NCBI GenBank assembly: GCA_020073265.1
Contig: JAIQFN010000065.1
Span: forward strand, 1-34,708
DNA from: Terriglobia bacterium
GTDB taxonomy: Bacteria; Acidobacteriota; Terriglobia; Bryobacterales; Bryobacteraceae
DNA: 34,708 bases
Direction: 5' to 3'
Under the pieces are notes generated by a model that saw only the letters and a list, made by a program, of their open reading frames with translations, was not told where the DNA came from and did not search any database. Positions 7,954 to 9,395 of this stretch are shown piece by piece. Position 1 is the stretch's first letter; every line of letters starts with the position of its first letter. A program made the position numbers and the translations under genes.

Positions 7954-8988
7954 TCACTTACGCTGCAATTCCTTCGGGACCCGCTGCCGGTCGAAGTCCT
8001 GGTATTGGAACGTCCACTTGAGCGGCAGCTCCTGCGGAATGTAGCACAGCCGGTCGTCGCAGGCCTGATATCGCAGCGTTCCCTCCACCGTGAAACTCCC
8101 GGCGCTGTCCAGCAAGGGCCTCAGCTTCGCATCCTGCCCGAGGGTGATGTCGCGCGTCAGCCGGAACCGGTTGCGATACACCGGCACCGTCTCGTCGATG
8201 GCCTTCAGATAAAGTTTTTCCGACTTCGGATACGCGACCTCGTGCGCCGCGAAGCCGTCGGAGTCCTTCAGCTTCCAGTCGATCGCTATGTAGCCTTCCA
8301 CGCCCGGAGCATAAACGTGCATGTTCGGATTCAGCTCGATGTCGAGCGTCAGGGCCACGCGATGCCCGGTGGCTACGATCGAATTGCTGGCCGTGGCGGT
8401 GAGCCGAAGCTGCCTGCCTTGCACCTCGGTCTTGCCCGCCGAAGGGATCACGCCAAACTGGTGGCTCAGGATGTCGGCGGAGGTGTAGCGCTCGCGGTAG
8501 TCGTCTTCGAAATACTTCGCGACAATCGTTCCCTTGCCATCCAGAATGAACGATCCCGGAAACGGAATCCCGTAGAACGCGTTGTCCTTGGGCATGGTGT
8601 CGTTGAGGATGTTCAATTGGCGGATGGTCTTCGAATCCACGTCCGACAGCAGCGGAAAATGGACGCCCTTGCGATCGGAGAAGTTGTGCAGCACCGCGAC
8701 GCTGTCGTAACTGACTCCGGCGACGCCCAAGCCGAGCTTGCGAAACTCGTCCTTGTTCTTTTCCAGCTCCACGAGCTGGGCCTTGCAGTAGGGTCACCAG
8801 TCCGCCGAGCGGAAGAACAGGATCACGGCGCCCTTCGGCCCCAGCAGACTCTGGAGGCTTCGGGTCTTGCCGTCCTGATCCTGGAGCGCGAAATCCGGCA
8901 TCCGGCTCCCTACCGGCGGGCCGTAATCGCGCGCTGAGAGCAATCCCGCAACGCCGAGGAGCAATCCCACAACGCGTCGTGCCGACAT
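7954..8988 (-). CDS. Candidate selenoprotein: peroxiredoxin-like domain fused to DsbD-alpha-like domain (TGA at 8794-8796 read as Sec)
   Basis: Two open frames, 8988-8797 and 8793-7957, are in the same phase and separated by one TGA. Read through, they give a 344-residue protein: a signal-like N-terminus, an AhpC/TSA-type thioredoxin fold (PDFALQDQDGKTRSL, AVILFFRSADW-x-PYCKAQLVELE, GVSYDSVAVL, FPLLSD, YGIPFPGSFILD), then from about residue 165 a domain like DsbD-alpha, with NPNMHVYAPGVEGYI and its Cys pair in YQACDDRLCYIP. The TGA replaces the first, peroxidatic Cys of the family's WCPYCK motif, giving W-U-P-Y-C. A perfect 7-bp hairpin lies at the spacing expected of a bacterial SECIS. I infer an exported thiol or peroxide reductase with a Sec-x-x-Cys centre. 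A nonsense mutation or base error is the main alternative. Confidence 0.8.
8763..8796 (-). promoter_or_regulatory. Candidate bacterial SECIS hairpin following in-frame TGA
   Basis: On the minus strand the TGA (8796-8794) is followed by 14 bases and then CCAGCTC-GTG-GAGCTGG, a perfect 7-bp stem with a three-base loop. The loop starts 22 bases after the TGA and its first base is G. As I recall the bacterial SECIS consensus, this meets its needs: a short stem, a small apical loop with G in the first two positions, and a loop roughly 16-37 bases after the UGA. The stem also encodes conserved residues (AQLVELE), so part of the pairing could be coincidental codon choice. Confidence 0.6.
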
Positions 8989-9158: not shown

Positions 9159-9395
9159 ATGAATCGCAGAAAATTTACCATCGCTCTTGGGACCGCGACG
9201 GCTGGACTGGTAGCGGGCTCCGCGCTCTTCGGCCAGGATAAGAAAGAGAAGAAGGGCAAGGCCGCGAAGCACGATTGCAAGGGCCAGAACGATTGCAAGG
9301 GCCAGGGCGGCTGCAAGACTGGCGACGCCGGCTGCAAGGGAAAGAACACTTGCAAAGGGAAGGGCGGTTGCGCCGTTCCTCCGAAAAAGTCATAA
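9159..9395 (+). CDS. Small Cys-rich exported peptide with CKG repeats
   Basis: A 78-residue protein. The N-terminus NRRKFTIALGTATAGLVAGSALFG reads as a twin-Arg signal. The mature part is Lys/Gly/Cys-rich: HDCKGQNDCKGQGGCK, a short GDAGCKGKNTCKG link and KGGC, with seven Cys in roughly six-residue spacing, mostly as C-K-G. I know of short low-complexity CKG-type proteins in environmental bacteria, and the pattern recalls the copper-binding bufferin (DUF2282) group, but no DUF692 partner lies nearby and I do not assign it to that family. GGGAGG at 9147-9152 supports the start. Export by Tat suggests folding or metal loading before transport. A strong terminator follows, so it is probably its own transcript. 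Metal or thiol chemistry is an inference from composition. Confidence 0.82.
   Translation: MNRRKFTIALGTATAGLVAGSALFGQDKKEKKGKAAKHDCKGQNDCKGQGGCKTGDAGCKGKNTCKGKGGCAVPPKKS

Follow-up and report, generated by a model that had tools for sequence, protein, structure and literature searches.

A predicted selenoprotein gene of Acidobacteriota joins a peroxiredoxin-like UxxC domain to a DsbD-alpha-like domain

The window analyzed here is a stretch of 34,708 nucleotides from a Terriglobia bacterium (contig JAIQFN010000065.1 of assembly GCA_020073265.1), and it contains a gene interrupted by a single in-frame TGA (Table 1). A first-pass annotation of the sequence had proposed that this codon joins two frames. 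Translation confirmed it and added the strand, which that annotation lacked: on the minus strand, 64 codons precede the TGA (8794-8796) and 279 sense codons follow it, up to a stop at 7954-7956 that is itself a TGA. Readthrough would give a product of 344 residues with one selenocysteine (Sec) candidate, U65, and with no Cys besides C68, C310, and C315. An automated gene finder had been expected to split such a gene, and a mechanical ORF listing indeed cut it into two pieces of 64 and 272 aa. Export of the product, proposed at the same time, is likely from a signal peptide judged by eye; residues 1-18 showed low pLDDT in the AlphaFold2 model.

Table 1. Features of the locus; positions are those of the window.
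Feature	Position	Strand	Basis or remark
Whole predicted selenoprotein gene	8988..7954	minus	ATG at 8988, internal TGA = Sec65; relatives similar in length and architecture
Probable signal peptide, first ~19 residues (MSARRVVGLLLGVAGLLSA)	8932..8988	minus	Judged by eye
AhpC-TSA/redoxin domain, residues 26-157	8518..8913	minus	Pfam PF00578, 107.5 bits, 5.8e-31
In-frame TGA, predicted Sec65 of UxxC (U65-P-Y-C68)	8794..8796	minus	Context SADW-U-PYCK
Cys68, second residue of UxxC pair	8785..8787	minus	Aligned with peroxidatic Cys of PrxQ
Putative bSECIS hairpin, 7-bp stem, GUG loop	8779..8763	minus	CCAGCTC-GTG-GAGCTGG; loop starts at nt 22 after TGA
DsbD_N (DsbD-alpha/ScsB-alpha type) domain, residues 205-320	8029..8376	minus	Pfam PF11412, 42.8 bits, 6e-11
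Cys310, first Cys of alpha pair C-x4-C	8059..8061	minus	Translation
Cys315, second Cys of alpha pair	8044..8046	minus	Translation
Divergent neighbor, small Cys-rich protein like BufA2 bufferin (copper metallophore)	9159..9395	plus	NF050166, 46.2 bits, cut-off 60

At the domain level, the fusion of a Prx-fold domain to a DsbD-alpha-like domain, as first claimed, was recovered by Pfam (AhpC-TSA and DsbD_N). The DsbD_N score lies above the Pfam cut-off of 25 bits, and 23 of the 32 members of alignment A1 match this family at E <= 0.001. That alignment, with 25 of its 32 sequences at full length, was built without L034, L046, and three of the ten short homologs; alignment A4 was built without L034, L046, and L068. 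The two-domain AlphaFold2 model (32 sequences) reached a mean pLDDT of 92.4 and a pTM of 0.86. In this model, C310 and C315 lie between strands 298-307 and 319-329, so that the Cys pair sits on a beta hairpin, as in a DsbD-alpha domain. The Cys motif of this domain is present in 64 of the 65 Sec copies, in 25 of the 26 Cys copies, and in the single GAG copy.

Modelled alone, the alpha domain kept a pLDDT of 88.7, and its best PDB match was the N-terminal periplasmic domain of ScsB (6c29; E 4.1e-6, TM 0.60). Only two fold matches reached E <= 0.001, this one and an Ig-like OCRL1 domain (3qbt, 7.2e-4), and the alpha domain of DsbD itself was absent among the 50 fold matches listed for the lone domain. 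At the sequence level, the C-terminal domain had no PDB match at E <= 1. No structure among the best 50 convincingly covered both domains, the only one to align over 238 columns being 4eo3, at 15.9 A rmsd. The gene product has no DsbD_TM domain, which a whole DsbD would have. In the source genome, the one PF02683 match is a separate gene on contig C85, with a 740-aa frame that combines DsbD_N and DsbD_TM; it is also the only DsbD_N gene there besides the fusion gene.

Comparison with homologs at the TGA codon had been suggested as a check, and relatives carry either TGA or Cys there. Among 92 distinct full-length copies (our gene included), 65 had TGA at codon 65, 26 had TGC or TGT, and a single degenerate copy had GAG. 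The 26 Cys copies provide the Cys homologs at the same position expected for a selenoprotein, and U-x-x-C was intact in all 65 Sec copies. Near-identical proteins were removed before counting (L149, L152, L156, L109, L111, and L080 repeat L026, L029, L033, L032, L034, and L024), and L133, a TlpA-like row with TGC and four of the five core pairs of the hairpin described below, was kept out of the ortholog counts.

These copies came from several searches. All 61 genomes of one search matched at E <= 0.001, many of them through other Prx-fold genes alone; 35 of them held a total of 38 copies that scored above 200 bits and contained a single TGA, at codon 65 in 38/38. The matches above 200 bits that had no TGA carried Cys (G049, contig C70; G022, contig C401) or GAG (G004). 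A phylum-wide search (396 genomes, E <= 1e-30) matched 53 genomes, and its codon check covered 29 new loci, one per genome, leaving out 23 other matching genomes. TGA was found at 24 of these loci and Cys at five, three of which repeat earlier sequences. One further contig scan used a Cys query.

The frame remains open and conserved after the in-frame UGA, as expected for a selenoprotein gene. After the TGA, dN was lower than dS in 8/8 pairs, for example 0.18 vs. 1.28 between our gene and a congener over 279 codons (L079/L081), 0.048 vs. 0.53 (L102/L103), and 0.021 vs. 0.25 (L106/L107). Before the TGA, where the segment is shorter and includes the signal peptide, constraint was weaker (0.36 vs. 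1.17 for L079/L081, 0.028 vs. 0.040 for L087/L088, and one pair with no dS). These values argue against a pseudogene in which a nonsense mutation created a true stop and the gene is decaying, as do the TGA shared at one position by 65 distinct copies whose frames stay open beyond it, the conserved stem, and the presence of the Sec machinery. The observation that favors decay comes from the congener G004, whose copy (L034, the same sequence as L111) is an open frame of 271 aa that has lost the active-site segment and kept the alpha Cys pair, in a genome with selB. Overall, we consider a pseudogene very improbable.

Two other explanations of the TGA fare no better. The source genome is a draft of 131 contigs, where a sequencing or assembly error at 8794-8796 could arise, but the same TGA is found in 34 other genomes of the 61-genome search and in 25 genomes from two further searches, which makes an error practically negligible. 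It is also highly improbable that the TGA is decoded as another residue, such as Trp, without Sec. We found no support for such decoding; the alternative residue was Cys in 26 of the 27 distinct non-TGA copies, and both Sec machinery and a SECIS element are present.

Regarding that machinery, a search of the genome for selA, selB, selD, and tRNA-Sec had been recommended, and all four are there. The genome (6.41 Mb in 131 contigs, 98.18% complete, 3.34% contamination) has matches to selA at 442.6 bits, selB at 384.6 bits, and selD at 376.5 bits, together with a tRNA-Sec at 76 bits, for which ARAGORN also gave tRNA-SeC (anticodon tca). Just one other tRNA-Sec match exceeded the cut-off (L002, 48.1 bits), and ARAGORN identified it as a tRNA-Ser. 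The selD gene (L018, contig C85:8028-8939) has one internal TGA of its own, and its product is probably a selenoprotein itself.

Across relatives, selB was over the cut-off in 58 of the 60 genomes with the TGA form (ours included) vs. 5 of the 25 Cys-copy genomes (Fisher p 7.5e-13). The 58 comprise 35/35 TGA genomes of the 61-genome search, 22/24 of the phylum-wide search, and G460 (L030). The remaining two TGA genomes are G336, with selA present and no selB match, and G376 (93% complete, intact stem), which yielded no match to selB or selA. Among the 25 Cys-copy genomes, selA was detected in six and either selA or selB in seven; these genomes may hold other Sec copies. Counted outside the 25 were G049 and G176, which have both a Sec copy and a Cys or stop-free copy, G004 (GAG, selB present), and the short-homolog genomes G479 and G480 (no selB). 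selA was matched in several relatives negative for selB (G007, G010, G016, G022, and G039), though below the cut-off in G010, so missing contigs play a part.

Downstream of the TGA, the first-pass annotation had described a 7-bp hairpin with a G-first three-base loop that begins at nt 22, and the hairpin is present as claimed. Bacterial SECIS elements are described as having a loop of 3-9 nt, a stem of 4-16 bp, and a G in the first two loop positions, with a spacing of 16-37 nt and an MFE at or below -7.5 (PMC13188914). Our hairpin agrees with the four published rules: its stem of 7 bp closes a GUG loop that lies 21 nt from the TGA, and it folds at -10 kcal/mol on its own.

Folding energy was a modest guide. 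The bare 17-nt hairpin (-10 kcal/mol) gave a z of -3.66, with 0/200 shuffles as good, a strong value because the stretch was picked for being a hairpin. A fixed 51-nt stretch gave -12.7 kcal/mol with a z of -0.82 and 40/200 shuffles as good, which is an ordinary energy. Against codon-preserving shuffles, 48 nt of our own gene (row L079) had a z of -2.13, and the mean z was -0.95 for 41 Sec rows, -0.43 for 21 TGC rows, and -0.91 for 3 TGT rows (68 rows, reduced to 65 after removal of near-identical proteins). Given the modest z in fixed stretches, we set energy aside as proof of a SECIS element.

What places the hairpin beyond chance is its conservation with compensatory change across relatives, and the core stem is indeed conserved among those with TGA. 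RNAalifold on 34 Sec sequences predicted a 6-bp stem at the hairpin site. In the pairing alignment of these rows (34 of 41 distinct Sec rows, with seven near-copies out), 98.0% of the cells were paired (90.4 in shuffles) and 18 cells had changed on both sides (6.4 in shuffles), with 0/500 shuffles as high for either measure. Two of the five pair measures did not exceed the shuffles (double-change pairs, 377/500; further pair types, 425/500) because four of the six pairs are invariant. The alignment of all 24 Cys rows had 71.5% of cells paired (70.5 in shuffles) and showed an excess on no measure.

Counting distinct rows, the five-pair core stem was kept in 65/65 TGA copies vs. 5/26 Cys copies; by set, it was kept in 41/41 Sec vs. 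5/24 Cys rows of the first set and in 24/24 vs. 0/5 of those fetched later. Likewise, GT at +22/+23 was found in 65/65 TGA vs. 8/26 Cys copies. In the main variable pair, position 3 of a Gln codon is matched with position 1 of a Leu codon, which makes both compensatory changes synonymous; among the 65 copies this pair is G-C in 48, A-U in 16, and G-U in one. The switch between G-C and A-U accounts for 10 changes on the tree, and both sides moved together in 7/7 independent contrasts (median pairing, p 0.0156, range to 0.0312).

As far as sequence evidence can tell, the internal TGA is almost certainly a Sec codon and the gene a selenoprotein gene. Sec and Cys have switched at least nine times on the tree, eight of these switches being forced by starred branches (quick method). 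One of the Cys copies (L047) lies on a contig titled as a Bifidobacterium breve MAG; its tree neighbor is an Acidobacteria row. The copy is of Acidobacteria type, and the contig is probably mis-binned. Within the source genome, five of the 22 AhpC-TSA matches hold one TGA each: the fusion gene and four other loci (L129, L135, L140, and L147, on contigs C118, C68, C17, and C93, the C93 match being below the Pfam cut-off). Read by eye, their TGA contexts are TGGUTKE, WUGCR, YGULFC, and TUPHC, respectively, and a hairpin is predicted after each. These four are probably more selenoproteins.

The role first assigned to the codon, with Sec replacing the peroxidatic Cys of a peroxiredoxin, was not supported: the domain does have the Prx fold, but U65 occupies the Thr column rather than the peroxidatic position. 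In peroxiredoxins, a Thr lies three residues before the peroxidatic Cys or Sec, and here U65 fills that place. Two PrxQ-type paralogs in the same genome (L127 and L128) show ACG, the Thr of TxxC, at the codon aligned with U65; therefore, the PrxQ peroxidatic Cys aligns with Cys68 and U65 is off the peroxidatic position. In a single-sequence PDB search, the best match was the ResA variant 3c71, with U65 opposite the first Cys of the ResA CxxC. On this alignment we rejected the peroxidatic assignment of the TGA codon, where U65 corresponds to the thioredoxin-type first Cys of CxxC. Thus, the label "peroxidatic Cys" is probably wrong.

A true Sec-peroxidase would still be compatible with part of the evidence. 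The exported domain would then reduce hydroperoxides, with U65 attacking, C68 resolving, and the alpha domain recycling. The AhpC-TSA match (5.8e-31) is in its favor. Among NCBIfam models, none of which was matched at its cut-off, the best was the thioredoxin-dependent thiol peroxidase PRK09437 (60.6 bits, cut-off 140). A profile PDB search ranked the thiol peroxidase 2cx3 first and ResA fourth, and the nearest folds include BcpB, Bcp4, and AhpE, which lie close together with ResA. A viral fold library was of no help on this point; its five matches at E <= 0.001 were named peroxiredoxin (two) or glutathione peroxidase (three). However, the Thr of TxxC is absent with U65 in its column, the PrxQ paralogs have ACG there, and ResA, the best single-sequence match, aligns directly through its CxxC.

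An AhpC-TSA domain with UxxC, as found here, is what defines Prx-like UxxC selenoproteins, and the literature has kept these apart from the TXXU of Sec-Prx on this ground (PMC1088965). Because U65 is probably not peroxidatic and because of that UXXC/TXXU split, a thiol-disulfide oxidoreductase is more likely than a classical peroxidase on the sequence comparisons made here, and we regard the Sec-peroxidase as rather unlikely.

Within the thiol-disulfide reading, a relay between the two domains is favored because of the UxxC position, the ScsB-like alpha domain with its Cys pair, and the separate DsbD gene. SelB and tRNA-Sec would insert Sec at UGA codon 65, helped by the hairpin 21 nt downstream. 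In the probably exported product, redox chemistry would fall to exactly two residue pairs: U65/C68 in the Prx-fold, thioredoxin-like domain and C310/C315 in the alpha-like domain. U65 may attack an oxidized envelope substrate, such as a disulfide and possibly a peroxide or sulfenate, and C68 would resolve the U65 adduct as a selenenylsulfide. DsbD-gamma and DsbD-alpha exchange electrons; by analogy, the fused alpha domain may exchange electrons with the Sec domain in cis. Reducing power would come from the single full-length DsbD of the genome, on contig C85, which could supply electrons to the fusion protein. Computation shows the frame, the conserved codon and SECIS element, the Sec machinery, the domains, and the residues; we infer Sec insertion in the cell, localization, the direction of electron flow, and the substrate. 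The reading as a whole, a SelB-decoded and probably exported Sec protein that works as a two-domain relay, seems likely to us; the Sec thiol-disulfide mechanism in its detail is an even call.

The divergent bufferin-like neighbor raises a further question. It adjoins the selenoprotein gene in three congeners (L080, with the same sequence as L024, L081, and L082), which is an association only. In L043 and L044, frames resembling it occur some 2-3 kb away from the Cys copies. Around the Cys copy of L043 (650-6721) there are also sigma-factor-like, AhpD-like, radical SAM, and arsenite-methyltransferase-like genes, named by eye. ScsC, a copper-resistance protein, is predicted to have ScsB as its partner (PMC5524982). 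By this analogy, a copper link of the fusion protein may be taken as a lead only. A fuller picture, with a self-contained Sec envelope relay (DsbD-gamma-like plus ScsB/DsbD-alpha), a bufferin partner in copper or metal redox stress, and repeated Sec/Cys switching, is doubtful.

A 2005 paper already treated Sec-containing Prx-like UxxC proteins as known (PMC1088965); subsequent surveys include them (PMC1794560, PMC2398784), as does the table of a 2026 review, whose accessible text names DsbD once, in a rhodanese fusion (PMC13188914). The first-pass annotation had stated that some Acidobacteria, Solibacter among them, are reported to use Sec. Selenoproteins of Acidobacteria are indeed on record, with three families and four selenoproteins in 2006 (PMC1794560), but the word Solibacter does not occur in the accessible text of that paper. 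More recently, three selenoproteins were reported in one Acidobacteriota genome (2025; PMC12013277). We found no description of a Prx-DsbD-alpha selenoprotein in the open-access literature (PMC, without supplements), and it may be described elsewhere. Thus, the UxxC Prx-like Sec family is known, and the apparent novelty is that a DsbD/ScsB-alpha-type domain, carrying a Cys pair of its own, is fused to it.

If expressed, the product would be a selenoprotein widespread in Acidobacteriota, whose gene is cut in two by mechanical gene finding and whose architecture recurs in dozens of relatives; the source genome is a soil-type Acidobacteriota. The repeated switches offer a natural Sec/Cys series of one enzyme, well suited to studying the advantage that Sec confers in the cell envelope. 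Moreover, the presence of an alpha domain within one chain points to a way in which such a Sec protein could be recycled outside the cytoplasm.

Among known systems, Prx-like UxxC selenoproteins (PMC1088965, PMC1794560, PMC2398784 as 'Prx-like 1', PMC13188914) share the AhpC-TSA fold and the thioredoxin-like UxxC that replaces TxxU. The protein described here differs in its C-terminal DsbD-alpha domain with its own Cys pair, a distinction drawn from published descriptions and not from sequences (e.g. WP_010940744.1). The ocean-metagenome fusions Prx-PP2C, Prx-like 2-Secretin_N, and Prx-like 3-Unknown_3 also join a Prx or Prx-like Sec domain to a Cys-bearing domain; compared by description only, none is called DsbD in the accessible text, and Unknown_3 has CxxC (PMC2398784). 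TsoB, a rhodanese/DsbD fusion-like selenoprotein (NF045694; PMC13188914), likewise has a DsbD-like part; however, it is described with a rhodanese domain and UxxxxU and is not Prx-like, and NF045694 is absent from the NCBIfam matches of our fusion protein.

ResA/TlpA-type oxidoreductases share the exported Trx fold and have WCxxC, whereas here Sec replaces the first Cys, an alpha domain is fused, and AhpC-TSA far outscores Thioredoxin. Finally, the DsbD alpha domain (nDsbD) and the N-terminal domain of ScsB resemble our second domain in the Pfam DsbD_N match, the 6c29 fold match, and a Cys pair between two strands, an arrangement also described for nDsbD (PMC11838788). The spacing is C-x4-C here and C-x5-C for Cys103/Cys109 of nDsbD (PMC11838788). 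Unlike DsbD and ScsB, the fusion protein has no membrane domain, and it places the Trx-fold domain first and the alpha domain second.
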